Source: Methylotenera oryzisoli (GTDB lineage Bacteria > Pseudomonadota > Gammaproteobacteria > Burkholderiales > Methylophilaceae). From it: a stretch of DNA of 34,688 nucleotides. Below the pieces are notes generated by a model. The model was not told the origin of the DNA, ran no database searches, and was given only the letters and a program-made list of their open reading frames with translations. The stretch covers positions 1-34,688 of the forward strand of contig CAMCVF010000014.1 of assembly GCA_945881735.1 (NCBI GenBank), written 5' to 3'. Within the stretch, counting starts at the first letter, position 1. Each line of letters starts with the position of its first letter. Shown here piece by piece: positions 255 through 34,688 of the stretch. The position numbers and the translations under genes were made by a program.

Positions 255-1019
255 TTACAGTTTTTTTGAACGCTTTGTTACCACCACGTTGTAACCCATC
301 AAAACTAGTGCGAGAAGTGCGTATGCCCAAGGCGGCAGTGGAACATCACCAGCATCATTATTACCACCGACTGAAGCAGCAGTAACGTTGAAGCTCTGAG
401 ACAAAGTTGTTGCAGCGGCATATGTTTCATTACCTACCTGATCTGCGACTACCGTGCAGCTGCCAGTGACAACCAGCGTGACTACCCCATCGGTAACTGT
501 GCATACGTCTGGGCTAAGACTAGAAAAAGTTACTAACAAGCCCGAGTCTGAAGTGGCTGTTATTGGGAAGGGACTGGAGTCTAGCGACACATCCAATATC
601 GAAGGGAATGTGATTGTTTGGGAAAGGAGACGTAGACGTATTACTAGACTAAGTGTAGATTCTTTCTGAATATTGTAATCCTGAAGCGTTCGACCATCCT
701 CAAGTTGCTTACCAGCGAAAATCAGTCTTTGCTGATCCGGCGGAATACCCTCTTTATCTTGAATTTTTTGTTTTACATTTTCGATCGCATCGCTTGCCTC
801 AACATCAAGCGTAATCACTTTACCTGTTAAAGTTCTAATAAAAATCTGCATCGCAAACGCTGAGGTAGACACAACGAATATTGTTAAGAATAAGACTACT
901 TTATATAATTTATTGAGGATAAAACCCTCATCAACGGTTGCTGTAGATGTAAACTTGATGCCATCTTTTTCAGATACAACGTTTAAAGTAGTTTGGGGAT
1001 TTTTTTGAAAGATGGGCAT
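255..1019 (-). CDS. Secreted ubiquitin-domain protein with IPTL-CTERM-like sorting tail
   Basis: 254 aa. Residues 1-38 are a polar, unusually long n-region. Residues 39-56 form a hydrophobic segment ending in STSAFA, a good signal peptidase I site. The next residue, Met57, is Met1 of a ubiquitin domain (57-132, nt 624-851). By eye it agrees with eukaryotic ubiquitin at about 64 of 76 positions. It keeps Lys11, 27, 29, 33, 48 and 63 and the Leu8/Ile44/Val70 patch. Lys6 is Arg, His68 is Ser and the terminal Gly75-Gly76 is Leu-Leu. Residues 133-212 resemble bacterial Ig-like repeats (QTITF start, Cys173 and Cys188, GNETYAAA). Residues 225-254 ([15 protein letters not shown], then a basic end) are an IPTL-CTERM-like anchor. 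The ATG is preceded by AGGT about 10 nt upstream, and I saw no better internal start. Conjugation is unlikely without Gly-Gly. A role as a surface domain or mimic is inference. Confidence 0.85.
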
Positions 1020-3838: not shown

Positions 3839-4732
3839 TTAATGAGATTTTAGCCACTTTAGAAAACCAACTTTACTTAATAAAAATGCATGAGGTAAAG
3901 TTAAGGCGGAGAGTGTTGCAAAGGTTACTTTTATTAGGTTTTCATTGAATTTTTCGATTGGTAGCAGTTGGAAAACACCTGCGCAAAACAGCAATACAAT
4001 TAATGTTGGTACTATTAATGTAATGAGCAGAGCTGTGTTGGAGTATTCAACAAAATAAAATTTAGCTCTTAATACATGACGCGCGCTATGCATAAAACAA
4101 AAATAAATGGTAAATGCTAATAAAGGTTCAGCTAGCAACATTAATACGCTTACAGCTACAATTTCCCAAATGTGCCGCTGTTCAATTGGATATTTTTTTA
4201 GAGAAATAACTACAGTGATTAATATCGTTAATGCAGCAAAAACTATTGAAAATGGCATCATTACGTTTACGATTTCTACCGCATGACCATAATCAATCAA
4301 ATAGCCATATAATTTTGCTAATTCGTTTGAGTGCAAAATACTTGGGAGCGTAATGATATTAAATCCATATAGCGTACCTAGAAGTTTGGGATTTATACTG
4401 CCCAGATCATCCGAAAAGTGGATTGCTGAGAAACATAATAAAAGAATGAAAAAAAAGGTAGGTAATACCATCCAGAAAATTAAGACACCAATGGAGAGTG
4501 ATAAATAAACACTTACAAATTGAAGCCATTTTTTTATGCTGTTGAGCGCAAAGGCTTTTTTTGCAAATAGGGTATCAAGCGCGCCATGCGGTACGCCAAA
4601 AAAAGTAATGATCAAAATAAGTGCTAAAACATTAGTTGTGCTGGTGTTACCTAATCCCAAATAAAACAAAGCAATTGTCACGATGGTAACAACCATAAAT
4701 ATATTACTTTGTAATATTAAGTACTTAGCCAT
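3839..4732 (-). CDS. blh: Beta-carotene 15,15'-dioxygenase, Brp/Blh family
   Basis: 297 aa, polytopic inner-membrane enzyme with about seven to eight hydrophobic helices. It cleaves beta-carotene symmetrically with O2 to give two retinal molecules, the chromophore of the rhodopsin encoded at the head of this operon. Iron-ligand type His motifs are visible: GVPHGALD near residue 48, AIHFSDD near 105 and FMHSARH near 213. Length matches the family. It is last in the pigment operon and starts 8 nt after crtY ends, which suggests co-transcription and possibly coupled translation. The call rests on motifs, topology and context and is strong. Confidence 0.9.
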   Translation of the reverse strand: MAKYLILQSNIFMVVTIVTIALFYLGLGNTSTTNVLALILIITFFGVPHGALDTLFAKKAFALNSIKKWLQFVSVYLSLSIGVLIFWMVLPTFFFILLLCFSAIHFSDDLGSINPKLLGTLYGFNIITLPSILHSNELAKLYGYLIDYGHAVEIVNVMMPFSIVFAALTILITVVISLKKYPIEQRHIWEIVAVSVLMLLAEPLLAFTIYFCFMHSARHVLRAKFYFVEYSNTALLITLIVPTLIVLLFCAGVFQLLPIEKFNENLIKVTFATLSALTLPHAFLLSKVGFLKWLKSH

Positions 4733-4740
4733 GTTAAACC

Positions 4741-5913
4741 CTAGTCATGCTGATATTTAAATAGTCGCTTAAAGATATAAGCTGGCAATTCTTTAATAAA
4801 TAGTAATTTTGGCATGGAGGCAATAATAGAGAAATAATCCGCCATGCGGGCATGATCACTTAAAAATCGAATAACTGTAGAGGTTTTACAATTCAAAAAT
4901 AAGTTATAAAATAAATGAACAGATGATTTGGGGTTTGACTTTAGTACATTTAAAAAAAGGTCATCCATTCTGGCCAAAATCCATGTGTCTTTTTTAGGCG
5001 CTACTAATAATTGATGATTAATTAATGCATGCGCACACTCTTTTGCCCAACGCTGTATCCTTTGGAAAGCATAGCCAGAGCTTGGTCTTGCTGCCCCTGC
5101 ATATAACCCCGCATAAACATAACTAGGGTCATTGGTTTTGTTTATTTTTTGATTACCCATTGGCAGCTTGCCGTATTCGGTTCTCAATATTTTATAATTA
5201 ATATCTTTTAAATATTTTAAAAGGGATTGTTGCATGTATCCGCTAAACTCATCAGCCGCGAAAGTTTGCTTTGCGAATATAGTATATTCAATAAGCGCGC
5301 GTTTGGATGAATAAGGCAACACATAAACAAAACCAAGTCCTTGATTGAACGCAGCATCAAAATCCATTAGAACAAAGGTGTTGGAATCAAACATATCTTG
5401 GCTAGTTTCAACTTCAAAACCTATAAATGACTGCCACAATATAGAATCTTCATCTTTATTTTGCGTGATAGGCCTAGTGTCGACAATTTTGTCAGCAGTA
5501 TAAGTACCCTTAGTGGTAATGATTTGCCAGGTTTGATTATGTGTTTTAGAAACTTCTAAAACATCTTGATTATTCAATAGCGTAATACCTTGCCCATTTG
5601 ATGCTATTTTTGCAAGTGAATGTTCATAAAATGTTTGAGCAGAGAGCATTAAATAAGCATATTTTTTACAGCCCCTAGTAAAATTTTTGATACCATTTTT
5701 TATTTCAAAATTTAACCAAGAGTGATCTACCCAATCTTTAAGTTCAGGGTTAGCTACATCCCAAAAGCACCAAGTTCTATCATTTTTATAGTGTGCATTT
5801 CTTTCTAAAACAAGAGTAGATGGAGCAGACGACCCTGCCTCTGACAAACGCATAGCAAGGCTTAACCCTGCACAACCACCGCCTAATATAGCCAAGCTGT
5901 AGTGTTTATCCAT
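4741..5913 (-). CDS. crtY: Lycopene beta-cyclase, CrtY type
   Basis: 390 aa from the chosen start. The flavoprotein converts lycopene to beta-carotene by cyclising both ends. It has an N-terminal dinucleotide-binding motif LAILGGGCAGLSLAMRL, the cyclase signature NDRTWCFWD near residue 45, and the PSSGYAF motif near 280. I chose ATG 5913 (MDKHYS) because the Rossmann motif should begin within about 10 residues. The frame remains open for 26 more codons to 5991, but these lie inside crtB. With this start the gene overlaps the crtB stop by 8 nt (ATGGATAA), typical of translational coupling. Confidence 0.9.
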   Translation of the reverse strand: MDKHYSLAILGGGCAGLSLAMRLSEAGSSAPSTLVLERNAHYKNDRTWCFWDVANPELKDWVDHSWLNFEIKNGIKNFTRGCKKYAYLMLSAQTFYEHSLAKIASNGQGITLLNNQDVLEVSKTHNQTWQIITTKGTYTADKIVDTRPITQNKDEDSILWQSFIGFEVETSQDMFDSNTFVLMDFDAAFNQGLGFVYVLPYSSKRALIEYTIFAKQTFAADEFSGYMQQSLLKYLKDINYKILRTEYGKLPMGNQKINKTNDPSYVYAGLYAGAARPSSGYAFQRIQRWAKECAHALINHQLLVAPKKDTWILARMDDLFLNVLKSNPKSSVHLFYNLFLNCKTSTVIRFLSDHARMADYFSIIASMPKLLFIKELPAYIFKRLFKYQHD

Positions 5914-6847
5914 TACAAAATGGTAACTTGTTGATATGTTGGTGCAGCTGTTTAAGATGAACAGAGTTATAGAACCAAAATTTTCGATCAAATATCGCTT
6001 TAAAGCACACTTGAATACTGAGAATTAGCTTCATGTGATGCGGTATGAAGATCTTATTTTTAAGGTTGTTAAAATGCTTATGCTTTATTTTAAACCCAAT
6101 TTGCTGATAGAGTTTTGCAGCAATCAATATGCTCACACGTGACCTAAACGGTAGATGCACTAGTCCAGAGTAGCCACTCGCATAATATTGGTCTGCTTGT
6201 TTTAAAAGTACTTGTGATGCTTGTATAATTTTTGTTCGATCTGAATCGGTTAGTGCAATCACATCATCAGCTGATAATGCCCCTGCTAATGATTCGGGTA
6301 AATAAACCCGTTCTATCAAAGCATCTGCGTAAACGTCTCTAACAATATTGGTGAGCTGCATGGCTATACCTAAATCTACGGCATGAAATAAGGCTTTTTT
6401 CTCGGAAACATTAAGCACTTTGCACATCATAATCCCCACGGTACCCGCAACTTGGTAGCAATATTCCATAAGTTGTGCTTCAGTTTTTATGCGAACAACT
6501 GCTAAATCTGCCAAAACACCATTGATTAATTCGATCGGAATTTGAACAGGAATATCACACTCATCAAACAATGCTAATGCATCTGTGATGATGACATCTT
6601 TTGACTCGCACGCATAAATCTCTGCTTTGATTTTGTTTAGACAATCAAGAGCATGGCCTTTATCTGGTGCTTCATCGGCTAAGTCATCAATGTATCTGCA
6701 AAATCTGTATAAACGTGTAGCTTGTTTGGCCGAATATTTGCTTAAAAAGAATTTGGCCCAATAAAATGTTTTGCCTTTATTAAATAGAATATCATTCGAT
6801 TGATTTATATAATCTGCTGAACCCAAATAATTAGATGGGTGAGCCAC
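5906..6847 (-). CDS. crtB: Phytoene synthase
   Basis: 313 aa. It condenses two geranylgeranyl diphosphates head to head to phytoene, the first committed carotenoid step. Both Asp-rich magnesium-binding motifs are present: CRYIDDLADE near residue 50 and TNIVRDVYAD near 165, as in the squalene/phytoene synthase family. The start is GTG, and its G is the last base of the crtI stop (TAGTG), a 1-nt overlap. The short C-terminal tail overlaps the start of crtY. Length and order within the operon fit the family. Confidence 0.92.
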   Translation of the reverse strand: MAHPSNYLGSADYINQSNDILFNKGKTFYWAKFFLSKYSAKQATRLYRFCRYIDDLADEAPDKGHALDCLNKIKAEIYACESKDVIITDALALFDECDIPVQIPIELINGVLADLAVVRIKTEAQLMEYCYQVAGTVGIMMCKVLNVSEKKALFHAVDLGIAMQLTNIVRDVYADALIERVYLPESLAGALSADDVIALTDSDRTKIIQASQVLLKQADQYYASGYSGLVHLPFRSRVSILIAAKLYQQIGFKIKHKHFNNLKNKIFIPHHMKLILSIQVCFKAIFDRKFWFYNSVHLKQLHQHINKLPFCNG

Positions 6848-8319
6848 TAGCTAGCCTCTGGCAACATGCTATCTATTACTTTAGCAGAACATAACACACC
6901 CGGAAGCCCAGCGCCTGGGTGGGTACCAGCGCCTACTAAGTAAAGGTTTTTAATTTTCTCAGATTGGTTATGAAATCTAAACCAAGCAGATTGCCTAAAG
7001 ATTGGTGCAATTGAAAACCCTGCCCCATGCGTACTGAGATAATTTTCTTTAAAATCTGCGGGGCTCATATAAAAATCTTCAACGACATGCTGTTTAAGAT
7101 CAGGCAAGATAGTTTTATCGAGCGCTTCAATGATTCTATTTTTTAATAGCTCGCCTTCATCTTTCCAGTTTATATTGCCCAGCAAATTAGGAACTGGGCA
7201 AAGCACATAAAAACTATCACAGCCCTCTGGCGCAAAGCTTTCATCAGTTGCTGTAGGGCGATGAAGGTATAACGAAAAATCATCCGACAGAATTTTTTGG
7301 TCAAAAATACGGTGCAAAAGCTCTTTGTAAGTCTTGCCTAACCAAATAGTGTGGTGCGCAACATCATCATATTTTTTAGTGCTACCAAAATACAAAACAA
7401 ATAGCCCCATTGAATAATGCGCGGCTTTTATTTTGAGCTTAGTAGAAATGGCGACATCGTGCCGATCAATCATGTTTTCATAAAGATAAGTTGGATCTGC
7501 GTTAGAAACGATAACATCCATTTCGTGGCTTGTGCCATCGGCAAAAATCACTTTTTTTGCAGTATTATTTTCAATAACTATTTTTTTAACGGTCTTGTTG
7601 AGAAGAATTTCAATGCCATTTCTTTTCATTAAATCCGAGAGTGCGTTTACGATTGCACCAGTACCGCCCATGGCAAAAAATACACCATATGCTCTTTCTA
7701 AATAATGAATCAGTCCATATATGCTGGTTGTTGAAAATGGATTACCACCAACTAAAAGTGGCTGTATTGAAAAAGCTTGCCTTAACTTTTCGTTTTTCAG
7801 GTAACGGCATACCATATTCCAAACTGTTTCATGGCTTTTTAATGCAATAAGTTTGGGAACAAGCGCGAGCATTTTAAAAAAGTGATTGAATGGCACGCTT
7901 GATAATTGAATAAAAGCAATATTGAATATTTTTTGTGAATGCTTAAGTAATCTTTGATAACCATACACGTCGTTAGGCGAAATTTTAGCAATTTCTGCCA
8001 GTGTTTCTTCAAGCGTGCCACCATAATCAAAAGTGGTTTTATCAGTAAAATAGAAACGGTACCAAGGTTTAAGTGGCACTAGCTTAATGTGATCTGATAA
8101 TTTTTCGTTAAATAATTGAAAAAGCTCTTCCAATAGAAAAGGCGCAGTAATAACTGTTGGCCCGGCATCGTGCTTATAGCCGTTTCTAATAAAAACTTGA
8201 CCCCTGCCGCCCAGCATAGAACTGCGATCTATCAGCGTCACCTGATAGTTTTTTGCCCTTAGCCTAAGCGCAGCTGCTATACCGCCAAACCCACCGCCGA
8301 TTACTAGTGCGCGCTTCAT
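6847..8319 (-). CDS. crtI: Phytoene desaturase
   Basis: 490 aa. FAD-dependent desaturase that converts phytoene to lycopene in the bacterial one-enzyme pathway. The N-terminus has the FAD-binding GGGFGGIAAALRL motif, with an acidic residue ending the second strand (LIDRSS) and LGGRG. The C-terminus has the CrtI signature YLVGAGTHPGAGLPGV near residue 460. The gene overlaps crtE upstream by 4 nt (ATGA) and crtB downstream by 1 nt. No frameshift or missing motif is seen. Confidence 0.93.
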   Translation of the reverse strand: MKRALVIGGGFGGIAAALRLRAKNYQVTLIDRSSMLGGRGQVFIRNGYKHDAGPTVITAPFLLEELFQLFNEKLSDHIKLVPLKPWYRFYFTDKTTFDYGGTLEETLAEIAKISPNDVYGYQRLLKHSQKIFNIAFIQLSSVPFNHFFKMLALVPKLIALKSHETVWNMVCRYLKNEKLRQAFSIQPLLVGGNPFSTTSIYGLIHYLERAYGVFFAMGGTGAIVNALSDLMKRNGIEILLNKTVKKIVIENNTAKKVIFADGTSHEMDVIVSNADPTYLYENMIDRHDVAISTKLKIKAAHYSMGLFVLYFGSTKKYDDVAHHTIWLGKTYKELLHRIFDQKILSDDFSLYLHRPTATDESFAPEGCDSFYVLCPVPNLLGNINWKDEGELLKNRIIEALDKTILPDLKQHVVEDFYMSPADFKENYLSTHGAGFSIAPIFRQSAWFRFHNQSEKIKNLYLVGAGTHPGAGLPGVLCSAKVIDSMLPEAS

Positions 8320-9239
8320 TCATTAATGCTTAATTTGACTTTCAGATTTTCAGCCAGACTAATCAGGATACTGCCTGAATTATTTGGTAGATGAAGTGCA
8401 TCCTGGATAGCTTCATCTAAATAATGTAAACATAGAGCGACAGATTGCTGGTGTGCATTTTTATAACCTAAGTTTTTTAATACATACGTTATGTTAACGG
8501 ATTGACTTGCGTGGTTATAGGCGCCATCTTTTACCACGTCTTCTAAATCGTCTGCAATCTGGTAACCTATGGCGAAGTTTGCACAGGCTTTTCTAGCTAA
8601 ATCGGTACAATCATTTCGTTGTGCTGCTACCAAGGCTAATTCAATAGGCAAACTAAAAAGCGCACCAGATTTTTGGCTTGCAATAACAACATACTGCTCA
8701 AGTGAAAGTTGTGGATTTTTTTTAAACAAAACATCTAAAGATTGACCTTCAATAGCCAACCTAGTTTGTTTATTAATAATTGAAATGAGTTGAGGTATTA
8801 GTGATGGTTTGCTGTATCTCGCCAACATTCCATAAGCTGTAGATAACAATAAATCACCAGCACATATTGCAATGTTAATACCATATTTTTTCCAAACGCT
8901 TGTCTGGCCTCTGCGAATTTCATCTTCGTCTTGAATATCATCATGAATCAAAGATGCGTTGTGCAGCAACTCCGCCGAGGCTGCTAATATCAACATATCG
9001 TCGTACTCTACGGCAAGTTTCATGCAGGCATCTAGGCATGATTTTGCTCTAACTTGCTGACCTGGAGAATCAAAATGATACTTAATTGCTTCAATACAAA
9101 TATTCTGTACTGAAAATGGAGCTGATTGTTCTAATAATGTATTTTGTATTAGACAATCTACTTGCTGAGTTAAATCATCAATAGAAAATGATGAATAAAA
9201 ATTGGCAGTGGATTGATAATTTAAAGCTTGAATAGTCAT
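8316..9239 (-). CDS. crtE: Geranylgeranyl diphosphate synthase
   Basis: 307 aa prenyl transferase that elongates farnesyl or shorter diphosphates to GGPP, the substrate of CrtB. It has the first Asp-rich motif HDDIQDEDEIRRG (DDx4D form, near residue 94) and the second motif ADDLED near 229, both chelating magnesium. It is the first pigment gene after the intercistronic hairpin, and no clear Shine-Dalgarno precedes its ATG. Chain length (C20) is inferred from operon context rather than from pocket residues. Confidence 0.9.
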   Translation of the reverse strand: MTIQALNYQSTANFYSSFSIDDLTQQVDCLIQNTLLEQSAPFSVQNICIEAIKYHFDSPGQQVRAKSCLDACMKLAVEYDDMLILAASAELLHNASLIHDDIQDEDEIRRGQTSVWKKYGINIAICAGDLLLSTAYGMLARYSKPSLIPQLISIINKQTRLAIEGQSLDVLFKKNPQLSLEQYVVIASQKSGALFSLPIELALVAAQRNDCTDLARKACANFAIGYQIADDLEDVVKDGAYNHASQSVNITYVLKNLGYKNAHQQSVALCLHYLDEAIQDALHLPNNSGSILISLAENLKVKLSINE

Positions 9240-9276
9240 TTTTAATCACATTCGATGTCAATTAAAAAAGAAGTGC

Positions 9277-9327
9277 TTTGCGGCGATGTAATTGAATTTG
9301 TTAATTCAATTTAACATTTGCCGCAAA
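9277..9327 (-). terminator. Attenuator-like hairpin between rhodopsin and crtE
   Basis: Between the rhodopsin and crtE genes the minus strand can fold into a long stem. The outer part is TTTGCGGC/GCCGCAAA, the middle ATGT/ACAT, and the inner part a perfect 9-bp AATTGAATT/AATTCAATT around a 4-nt loop. After it the transcript would read GCACTTCTTTTTTAATTG, a T-rich tail. This is a rho-independent terminator shape inside an operon. It would give more rhodopsin mRNA than crt mRNA. Confidence 0.65.
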
Positions 9328-9335
9328 TCACTATC

Positions 9336-9365
9336 ATGGTTTAGCAACTAATGGTTTAGCAACTA
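9336..9365. repeat. Perfect 2 x 15-bp tandem duplication
   Basis: ATGGTTTAGCAACTA is present twice in a row, with no difference, 8 bp beyond the rhodopsin stop codon. It looks like a slippage duplication in the rhodopsin 3' untranslated region. Confidence 0.9.
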
Positions 9366-9372
9366 AAAATTA

Positions 9373-10164
9373 CTATTTTTTCTCACTTTCAGTGACCGCA
9401 ACAGACCAAATAATCACACCAAAAGCAATTTTGTTTAATACGTCGGCTAAGTTATAAACAATATTTAAAGCTTTCATGCTTTCAGTTGGATCTGAACCTG
9501 ATAGATAACCGAAGAAGTAGCCGATAGGGTAAATAGCCCAACCGATTGTGACAATCCAACGCATTAAATTAAAGGCAGATTGCACGTTTGCTGGCGCTTG
9601 ATTTGCATTAATTTTGCTTGCTTCGCCACCAAATATTTCCCATAAAATATAAGCCCAACCTAACATGCCAATTACAAATGCAGGTAAAACGCCCATGTAG
9701 CCAGCTTCACCTAAATATCCGCCAACTAACATGACTAATGTACCAATCATTAAACGCCAAAATACGCCTGTTGGCACTTTAGCAATCGCTGCCAAAATCA
9801 GATAAAACTCAACCATCAACAGCGGTACTGTAATTAACCAGTCGATATAACGATATACGGTTGGAGTTGAGCCTGTCGCCACCCACACATCTCGCATGTA
9901 AAAGTAGTGCACTGCAGCGATAAGTGTAACCAAGCCAGATACAGTTAATGATGTTTTCCATTTTCCTGCGACACGATCTCTTTCAAGAAAAAAGAAAGCC
10001 GTTGAAGCCACCAAAGCCATTGATATTAACCAAAAAGAAATGCCCACAAAGTCACTTGATTGTAAGATGACACTATTTTCCGCGAACGCTGGTGTGCTTA
10101 AGCCAAAAGTGGCCATAGATAATAAGAACTTATTTTTAATAGATAGAACTGGAAGCTTAATCAT
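9373..10164 (-). CDS. Proteorhodopsin, green-type light-driven proton pump
   Basis: 263 aa. A signal-like N-terminus (cleavage likely after PAFA, residue 28) precedes seven transmembrane helices. Asp108 (proton acceptor), Thr112 and Glu119 (donor) give the D-T-E pattern of outward proton pumps. His86 matches the His that pairs with the acceptor in proteorhodopsins. Leu116 occupies the spectral-tuning position (Leu in green forms, Gln in blue forms). Lys245 in LADVLNKIAFG is the Schiff-base lysine for retinal. A GGGGA ribosome site sits about 8 nt before the ATG. It heads the operon crtE-crtI-crtB-crtY-blh, which supplies its retinal. Expected location is the inner membrane. Pump activity and colour are inferred from these residues. 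Confidence 0.95.
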   Translation of the reverse strand: MIKLPVLSIKNKFLLSMATFGLSTPAFAENSVILQSSDFVGISFWLISMALVASTAFFFLERDRVAGKWKTSLTVSGLVTLIAAVHYFYMRDVWVATGSTPTVYRYIDWLITVPLLMVEFYLILAAIAKVPTGVFWRLMIGTLVMLVGGYLGEAGYMGVLPAFVIGMLGWAYILWEIFGGEASKINANQAPANVQSAFNLMRWIVTIGWAIYPIGYFFGYLSGSDPTESMKALNIVYNLADVLNKIAFGVIIWSVAVTESEKK

Positions 10165-33629: not shown

Positions 33630-34688
33630 CTAAACAATAAAGAAATCACCATTGGTCAGTGTGGGATGTGTCGTTGCTCCAATAAGGGCGATTTGAACTG
33701 CAGCACCTGAACCACTGCCATCAGCATCATAATAAAGCGCGCCCGAGGTGGTGTTGTACACAATTCGATCACTCGCATCATTTCCTCTTACGGCAGTGCT
33801 CGATGCAAAAAACTGATCCGCAGTTAAAGCGCCTGTTGTGATACCTAAGCCCGTCATAATCGCATTTTCTAAGGAGATTTTGTCAGTGCCAGAGATGAAG
33901 TCAGTAATGGTGTCTCTATTATTATTAGCGTTTAATGCTGTGTTAAAAGTAAAGATATCTGCTCCAAGGCCACCTGTGAGCGTGTCATTACCTAATCCAC
34001 CTATCAGAGTATCATCACCTGCACCACCACTAAGAATGTTGACACCACTATTGCCCGTGATGATGTTATTAAGCCCATTGCCTGTACCATTGATTCTACC
34101 GGTTCCGGTAAGCGTGAGATTTTCTGCTCCAACTGCGTTAACTGTATCGAGGCTGTAAGTCACTGAAGACTGCACAAGGTCAGTACCAGCATCAGCAATC
34201 AGTTCTCTTACAATATCTCCTGCATTATCGACCACATAGGTGTCATCACCCACACCACCTATCATGGTGTCTGCTCCAGCAAGACCGTTTAAGTTGTCGT
34301 TGCCAATACCGCCTGTTAAAGTGTTGGCTGCGGCGTTGCCAGTCAATATATTGTTGAGATCATTGCCTGTGAGGCTGTAAGCAATGGTATTGGTGAGGGT
34401 GGCATTCTCTACATGATTACCCAGGACAAAGGTGCCGCCTCTGGTTGCAATGGCGACTTGTGCTAAGTCAGTCCCTTCATTGTTATTTTCAACAACTGTG
34501 TCGCCTGCATTGTCTACTACGTAAGTGTCATTGCCAGCTCCACCTGCCATGGTGTCTGCACCGGCTAGTCCATTAAGGATGTTATTAGCAGCATTGCCTG
34601 TGAGTCGGTTGTTGGCAACGTTGCCCGTGAGATTAAGTAGGCTTGATCCAGTATTGCTAGCATCAAGGTGTTCCAGATTGACTGATAG
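33630..34688 (-). CDS. RTX-type calcium-binding repeat protein, C-terminal part
   Basis: 352 codons seen. The frame is open to the right edge, so the N-terminus lies outside. It consists of repeated blocks: LTGN-x-x-x-N-x-LTG glycine/asparagine repeats, GGxGxD nonapeptides (GGVGDDTYVVDNAGD, GGAGDDTLIGGLGNDTLTGG) and intervening 40-residue strands. The final 110 residues (GADIFTFNTAL, DTITDFISGTDKISL, ending GDFFIV) are a typical type I secretion C-terminal module. Such proteins bind calcium after export by an ABC transporter/MFP/TolC system. No such genes are in the window. A met at 34550 is internal, not a start. Confidence 0.88.
   Translation of the reverse strand, partial: LSVNLEHLDASNTGSSLLNLTGNVANNRLTGNAANNILNGLAGADTMAGGAGNDTYVVDNAGDTVVENNNEGTDLAQVAIATRGGTFVLGNHVENATLTNTIAYSLTGNDLNNILTGNAAANTLTGGIGNDNLNGLAGADTMIGGVGDDTYVVDNAGDIVRELIADAGTDLVQSSVTYSLDTVNAVGAENLTLTGTGRINGTGNGLNNIITGNSGVNILSGGAGDDTLIGGLGNDTLTGGLGADIFTFNTALNANNNRDTITDFISGTDKISLENAIMTGLGITTGALTADQFFASSTAVRGNDASDRIVYNTTSGALYYDADGSGSGAAVQIALIGATTHPTLTNGDFFIV

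Follow-up and report, generated by a model that had tools for sequence, protein, structure and literature searches.

The ubiquitin gene and its product

How does a ubiquitin of near-eukaryotic sequence come to stand behind a putative signal peptide in a bacterium of the Methylophilaceae, and what could it do there? The window analysed here is the whole stretch of 34,688 nt from Methylotenera oryzisoli (contig CAMCVF010000014.1). The source genome has a size of 2.02 Mb in 34 contigs and is 92.7% complete with 0.03% contamination. The ubiquitin gene, its parts and the divergent neighbouring gene are listed in Table 1.

Table 1. Features of the ubiquitin locus in the window
Feature	Position	Strand	Basis
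Ubiquitin-protein gene P0001, 254 aa	255..1019	minus	ORF, Pfam match, alignment to human ubiquitin
N-terminal leader, residues 1-56	852..1019	minus	alignment of 11 loci (one leaderless) and hydropathy
Leader parts of P0001 in this order: conserved motif of 15 residues, hydrophobic signal core, A-F-A junction			
Ubiquitin domain, residues 57-130, then LL, not GG	630..851	minus	Pfam, alignment
Ig-like (Big-like) domain, residues 163-205	405..533	minus	below Pfam cut-off; relatives in another genome
C-terminal sorting-signal-like tail (stretch of 17 residues ... KRSKKL)	258..344	minus	by eye
Intergenic region of 69 bp separating the two divergent start codons	1020..1088	no strand	
Partner gene P0002, 335 aa	1089..2096	plus	divergent neighbour of ubiquitin gene

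The Pfam ubiquitin profile PF00240 recognizes P0001 with E = 1e-28, its score of 99.4 bits exceeding the cut-off of 25.4; the match spans residues 59-130 and covers the profile as a whole (positions 1-72 of 72). When aligned to human ubiquitin, 64 of the 74 domain residues are identical. The original prediction had counted 64 of 76 by eye, which is exact because ubiquitin positions 75-76 are occupied by LL. The terminal GG of the conjugatable type is absent and 124 residues follow beyond residue 130, hence this is not a free 76 aa protein. The same profile found this one match in the source genome and none in 14 control genomes.

At the N-terminus the mean Kyte-Doolittle hydropathy reaches a maximum of 3.0 over 11 residues, and a signal-peptide-like junction of the A-x-A type (STSAFA, then MQIF) lies directly before the ubiquitin Met1. 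As far as the sequence can tell, this hydrophobic core and junction bear out the predicted signal peptide and an export-type architecture. The proposed Ig-like domain held in part: the profile match is weak (PF22359, 20.3 bits vs. a cut-off of 27), but relatives of the C-terminal half of P0001 exist in a second genome from this order (E = 5e-19). For the IPTL-CTERM-like anchor, in contrast to what had been predicted, neither PF18203 nor TIGR04174 matched P0001 at E up to 1; the tail, consisting of VPLPPW, a hydrophobic stretch and KRSKKL, is therefore signal-like by eye only. Two exosortases (PF09721 proteins) are encoded in the source genome, and one IPTL-CTERM match above the cut-off lies elsewhere in it. 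An autotransporter barrel (PF03797) was not found in P0001 at E up to 1.

By eye, two other regions of the window stand out: positions 3839-10164 have the appearance of a rhodopsin and carotenoid gene cluster, with a rhodopsin-like gene at 9373-10164, and an RTX-type repeat protein at 33630-34688 runs off the contig end.

Probably exported ubiquitins in the family and beyond

Ten of the 187 genomes of the family, the source genome included, carry a ubiquitin gene, distributed over 4 of 24 genera. All nine other carriers combine a signal or leader, the ubiquitin domain and an autotransporter barrel (PF03797 in L124-L132, E from 6e-31 to 3e-42); L133, the tenth protein scanned for PF03797 and from the same order, has no barrel. 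Ubiquitin matched in seven of 399 genomes sampled evenly across the order, in four of them above the cut-off, and in two of 398 genomes of the phylum; both counts include the source genome.

Scanned with two peptide patterns, 84,980 species genomes yielded 444 confirmed relatives. The best 80 of these, ranked by similarity, are the genome-scan loci considered here; two family loci recur among them (L003 = L017, L004 = L083). The original prediction had taken the architecture for one not known as described. It does not stand alone but belongs to a broad set of exported ubiquitins, given these 444 relatives, of which the best 80 were inspected, and the kin within the family that have a barrel instead. 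A hydrophobic stretch precedes the ubiquitin in 62 of the best 80 and in 7 of 14 viral-contig loci. Anchors were scanned in 60 proteins, i.e. the window protein and 59 of 94 loci, picked by hand, in most cases because the start was signal-like and the frame usable; 14 had an autotransporter barrel, six a dockerin, four an IPTL-CTERM, two an SLH and one a T9SS tail. Taken together, the scans suggest that near-eukaryotic ubiquitins of the exported kind occur repeatedly in different phyla, joined to many sorts of anchor. The terminal GG is present at positions 75-76 in 8 of 69 exported loci of the fetched set.

With regard to mobile elements, a plasmid of Ruminococcus albus encodes an exported-ubiquitin relative, whose annotation reads ubiquitin family protein, and three plasmid records match P0001 at <60% identity, one of them mainly via the Ig-like part. 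A phage origin of the gene was rejected, as 50,697 phage records gave no match at E 1e-5 and none for the ubiquitin domain alone at 0.01. Viral contigs contain 14 ubiquitin relatives; those at L092-L094 and L096, which do not begin with a signal-like sequence, may be ubiquitins of viruses or eukaryotes.

Might the locus be a eukaryotic contaminant or an assembly chimera? The gene stops 254 bp short of the contig end, and several of the best 80 loci (e.g. L013, L045) resemble eukaryotic contigs in MAGs, which would speak for it. Against this, ubiquitin shares its reading frame with a leader and an anchor of bacterial type, and a conserved neighbour gene lies next to it. Such a ubiquitin gene recurs in 9 of the 186 other family genomes, among them the two single-contig genomes G042 and G115 with the same design, and exported ubiquitins are present as well in isolate records such as those of Dyella, Loktanella and Pseudohaliea. 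Because of the family recurrence, the isolate records and the conserved neighbour we reject contamination, the probability of which appears negligible.

Several forms of different build were seen along the way. The locus L057 (Dyella sp. OK004, 5905-6228) encodes a signal-like peptide and a complete ubiquitin, identical to human ubiquitin at 71 of 72 positions, which ends exactly with LRLRGG and a stop; L068 and L091 are built alike, so that all three look like apparently exported, conjugatable mature ubiquitins. L135 (same order, 7396-7794) is a divergent exported ubiquitin of ~130 aa without leader and without partner, which runs almost straight into a short tail of PTM, a hydrophobic stretch and basic residues. 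Very short exported ubiquitins, in which the domain leads directly into an IPTL-CTERM-like tail, are found at L097-L099 (viral contigs) and L079. Ubiquitin proteins of ~230 aa from actinobacterial MAGs (L025, L034, L043, L055, L082), bacterial or eukaryotic, start with the ubiquitin Met1, show no visible signal peptide and end with P-x-FTG or similar. Finally, L106 (5977-12246) is a Pseudoalteromonas plasmid protein of >2000 aa, in which a signal-like peptide is followed by a ubiquitin-like domain of divergent sequence (43% identity).

A partner gene linked to ubiquitin

The gene P0002, which together with the conserved leader goes beyond what had been noticed in the original prediction, is a conserved neighbour of leader-bearing ubiquitin genes. 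A homologue lies beside ubiquitin in 5 of 12 further family and order loci (G042, G146, G115, G111, G158), and the outer flanks differ among the partner-bearing loci, except for the near-identical pair G115/G111. Within the 187 family genomes the partner occurs in seven and ubiquitin in ten; both are present in six and adjacent in all six of them (Fisher p = 2.6e-8 for the co-occurrence). The seventh partner is a broken copy in a genome without ubiquitin match (G181), where the homologue is in two pieces (L144, 744-1756) and lies, by eye, near an integrase-like gene. Four of the ten ubiquitin carriers of the family show no partner, and among the 399 order genomes it was found in the source genome only.

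The arrangement of the two genes varies. In L022 and L036 the partner adjoins the ubiquitin gene divergently, as in the window, and in L031 and L051, both of which have IPTL-CTERM matches, it lies ~30-40 bp upstream in the same direction. No relative of the partner was confirmed on viral contigs and none was found among plasmid records. The protein belongs to no Pfam, PADLOC or PHROG family and gave no meaningful NCBIfam match. With no PADLOC match a role in anti-phage defence was discarded, and a first guess by eye, a HEPN/ApeA-type protein, was unsupported in Pfam and PADLOC.

The leader and the partner

Ahead of the signal core, partner-bearing loci have a leader motif in common, approximately LxVxSxxxGI/MxF(T/K)(S/T), as seen on aligning 11 loci of which one has no leader. 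A pattern for this motif, composed after the family sequences had been seen, matches 7 of 94 loci (L011-L104), and six of these seven have the partner, vs. none of the 87 loci without the pattern; for 72 of those 87, upstream sequence of 1.3 kb or more is present. The exception, L021, possesses the leader and has no partner within 3.1 kb upstream; almost no downstream sequence is present there. Leader and partner occur together in the window, G042, G115 and G111. In G016, a genome that is 69% complete, the leader is shortened and the contig carries no partner.

Two mosaics illustrate how the parts are exchanged. Between the loci L017 and L022, identity is 0.91-0.99 (0.78 in one stretch) from close to the ubiquitin start through the barrel, vs. 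0.57-0.85 over the partner and the early leader. The switch in identity falls within the leader, thus partner and leader travel together there. The window and L036 have partners that are 84% identical and leaders that are alike; their DNA identity is ~0.9 in the partner, ~0.8 in leader and ubiquitin and ~0.4 past the ubiquitin, where L036 continues with a barrel and the window with the Ig-like domain and tail. From both mosaics, the anchor on one side and the partner plus leader on the other look like separate exchangeable units flanking the ubiquitin. Proximity alone could also hold partner and leader together. As the leader motif contains no invariant lysine, it is not an obvious methylation site itself.

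What the partner may be

By eye, P0002 displays the elements SR...MPxxELINHS...E...Y, as they occur in LSMT and SETD3. The residues R142, N160, H161, E183 and Y188 are invariant in all nine partner sequences, and the G preceding E183 is variable. We take R142, N160-H161 and Y188 to be the upstream Arg, NH and catalytic Tyr positions of SETD3/LSMT, judged by eye. A profile comparison of the partner with LSMT and SETD3 scored 34.3, vs. at most 22.2 in 40 column shuffles; hhalign gave a probability of 28% over 26 columns at the NH motif. A comparison with seven other, ordinary bacterial SET sequences showed no signal (hhalign probability of 2%). The partner has no SET match in Pfam, and PDB sequence searches returned no match of weight.

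An AlphaFold2 model built from nine sequences reached pLDDT 72 and pTM 0.72, and one from six sequences was discarded as unusable (pLDDT 46). In a Foldseek search of the former against the PDB, the six top matches were plastid polymerase entries containing PAP7/pTAC14, the best with E 0.0099, prob 0.80, TM 0.35 and rmsd 13.6 over 457 columns; chain 8qma_J is PAP7/pTAC14 and 8w9z_J is pTAC14-like, the other four being assigned by entry only. None of the 53 PDB matches had E <= 0.001, and the viral library gave none at 0.001 either. PAP7 is a SET-domain protein (PMC4080259). The C-terminal helices of the partner model (m84e6cb946860) also gave weak fold matches, at chance level, to GGA GAT domains (E 1.1, 4.0), one of these entries being a complex with ubiquitin.

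On this mixed evidence we have moderate confidence that the partner resembles SET methyltransferases of the LSMT/SETD3 type. It is probably of SET-type origin; that it possesses SET methyltransferase activity we rate lower.

Ubiquitin folds fast, which can hinder export through Sec. The main alternative to an enzyme is a pilot, a SET-like protein that would bind the leader and keep the fast-folding ubiquitin export-competent. The six of seven vs. none of 87 loci in which the partner follows the leader, the joint transfer of both in the L017/L022 mosaic and the variable G before the invariant E183 all agree with such a role. However, five positions that are invariant in nine of nine sequences are what one expects of an active site, and leaderless kin with an identical exported design have no partner. 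We therefore consider a non-enzymatic pilot unlikely.

Selection and origin

Over 11 loci the ubiquitin part has a median pN/pS of 0.14 (55 pairs). The partner reaches 0.45 (36 pairs), the leader 0.53 (45 pairs, each of >30 codons) and the barrel region 0.56 (28 pairs). All these medians are to be read with a median pS of 0.71-0.83, that is near saturation, with few codons (73 for ubiquitin) and with pairs that are not independent. The values indicate, at the sequence level, strong purifying selection on the ubiquitin part, and from this pattern its near-eukaryotic sequence seems to be old in these bacteria and retained. G016 deviates: compared with L036, whose barrel region is almost the same, its ubiquitin has a pN/pS of 0.71 (small numbers, and a genome 69% complete); this ubiquitin looks to be under relaxed constraint. 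Its locus (L129, 12363-13658) shows a cut leader and many unusual changes in ubiquitin, which may be decay after loss of the partner.

These data also bear on the reading that ubiquitin is a mere stable structural spacer of a surface protein without any ubiquitin-specific role. The great diversity of anchors and hosts would suit a spacer, as would the two family members in which the I44 region is missing (L009, L010). Yet a spacer would hardly be held at 0.14 next to a barrel region at 0.56 and a leader at 0.53. Furthermore, I44, K48 and K63 are retained in 94%, 91% and 99% of 67 distinct exported domains, a set biased to close relatives since it was drawn from the best 80 of 444 and the viral-contig loci. 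A spacer is very unlikely for these reasons.

Another reading takes the exported ubiquitin as a weapon against related bacteria, similar to BfUbb of Bacteroides fragilis, with the partner as an immunity or producer-protection factor. BfUbb begins at Met1 after a signal peptide, is without GG and inhibits other strains of its own species, B. fragilis (PMC5705921), and the patchy spread of the genes described here (10 of 187 family genomes) fits such a role. On the other hand, BfUbb producers seem to do without an immunity protein, according to the same source (PMC5705921). The partner is large, was not found in 4 of 10 carriers and evolves no faster than other parts (0.45 vs. 0.56 for the barrel region), and anchored forms would require contact. 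We hold this reading to be rather unlikely.

As to the origin, a tree of 95 ubiquitin rows over 73 columns does not resolve the branching order. The end branch of human ubiquitin measures 0 and leaves from an open fork together with exported bacterial domains, and the leader group does not form one clade (4 changes, of which the starred branches force 2). The domain is of eukaryotic type, and its capture from a eukaryote, as originally suggested, is likely to judge from its sequence; where it came from and how often it was captured is beyond the resolution of the 73-column tree.

A possible function of the gene pair

Putting these results together, we propose a transferable two-gene cassette consisting of an exported ubiquitin mimic and a leader-recognising SET-like partner that modifies or pilots it, a proposal to which we give about even chances. 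What the sequences themselves contribute to it are the ubiquitin domain, the junction, the exchange of anchors, the genetic linkage and the association of leader and partner. We infer from there that export takes place, that the partner has a SET fold and activity and docks to the leader, and what the target is. The product of the first gene, a ubiquitin of eukaryotic type, would be exported via the long leader and signal core and cut, as predicted, just before Met1. An exchangeable C-terminal anchor, a barrel in the kin and the Ig-like domain plus tail in the window, would hold it on the surface or free it. The product of the second gene would be a cytosolic SET-like protein, most likely reading the leader prior to export, which then might methylate the ubiquitin passenger or pilot its export. 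Once displayed, the ubiquitin could bind proteins by which a different cell recognises ubiquitin. That cell would most plausibly be a protist that grazes on the bacteria, or else a competing bacterium, as with BfUbb.

Usual conjugation of the exported ubiquitin is not expected since the terminal GG is missing, and because nearly all surface residues of ubiquitin are retained a mimic in binding is most likely. Thus, with a free Met1 end, mostly intact binding faces and no GG, a binding decoy fits best. The known methylation of exported surface proteins in bacteria favours a partner that docks to the leader and modifies ubiquitin. In its most specific form, the proposal is that a SETD3/LSMT-like methyltransferase reads the leader and writes on an exported, non-conjugatable ubiquitin, and that exported ubiquitin is a general, interchangeable surface module in many phyla; this we put forward tentatively, as possible rather than probable. 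If true, bacteria would combine two signature eukaryotic regulatory parts in one surface system.

The linked SET-like partner offers a direct handle on function, as the two genes form a movable and testable system. Should the target be a protist, bacteria not known as pathogens would display a ubiquitin mimic on their surface. Should it be bacterial, antagonism of the BfUbb type may be far wider than described. BfUbb has been titled 'a unique homologue' (PMC3352274), and B. fragilis has been counted as 'one of a few bacteria' that possess a ubiquitin resembling that of eukaryotes (PMC5705921). In the literature we found a tested function for no exported bacterial ubiquitin other than BfUbb (PMC5705921, PMC3352274). 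Among the matches listed from the open-licence PMC literature, no title or abstract opening reports a ubiquitin autotransporter or the gene pair, which does not prove their absence.

Comparison with known systems

Unlike in ubiquitination operons of the Bil type, no E1 or E2 gene was seen by eye among the window ORFs beside the ubiquitin gene, for which one flank is visible. ThiF-family matches of the source genome sit on other contigs, and an E2 model gave no match in this genome, as it also gave none in its control. With the substrates of exosortases (IPTL-CTERM/PEP-CTERM) the window tail shares a hydrophobic stretch and basic residues, and exosortases are present in the genome, but the tail lies outside the model matches. 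The barrel of type Va autotransporters (PF03797) is present in the nine other family carriers, all of which place ubiquitin N-terminal to it, whereas the window protein itself is without one.

The partner is comparable by eye to LSMT, SETD3 and PAP7 (pTAC14) in the elements SR...P-x-x-D/E-L-I-N-H-S and the E..Y positions, but is too divergent for sequence matches in Pfam or PDB. If it acts as proposed, it would resemble KmtA, which methylates the autotransporter AtaA, and the rickettsial PKMT acting on OmpB, whose methylation prevents ubiquitination and autophagy (PMC11784438), in being a bacterial methyltransferase for an exported surface protein. Different from these, the gene of the SET-like partner adjoins that of its presumed substrate, which would be a ubiquitin; the enzyme families are not equated here.

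The closest comparison is BfUbb, which covalently binds human E1 and inhibits ubiquitination in vitro (PMC3352274). Both are ubiquitins of eukaryotic type without GG behind a signal peptide, which is predicted in the window protein and in BfUbb is cut exactly before Met1, and both are found in some strains only (PMC3352274, PMC5705921). BfUbb, however, is a free protein of 76 aa that is 63% identical to human ubiquitin, whereas the window domain is 86% identical over 74 residues, continues into an Ig-like domain and tail, and is preceded by a leader that is long and conserved; a partner gene is linked to its gene.
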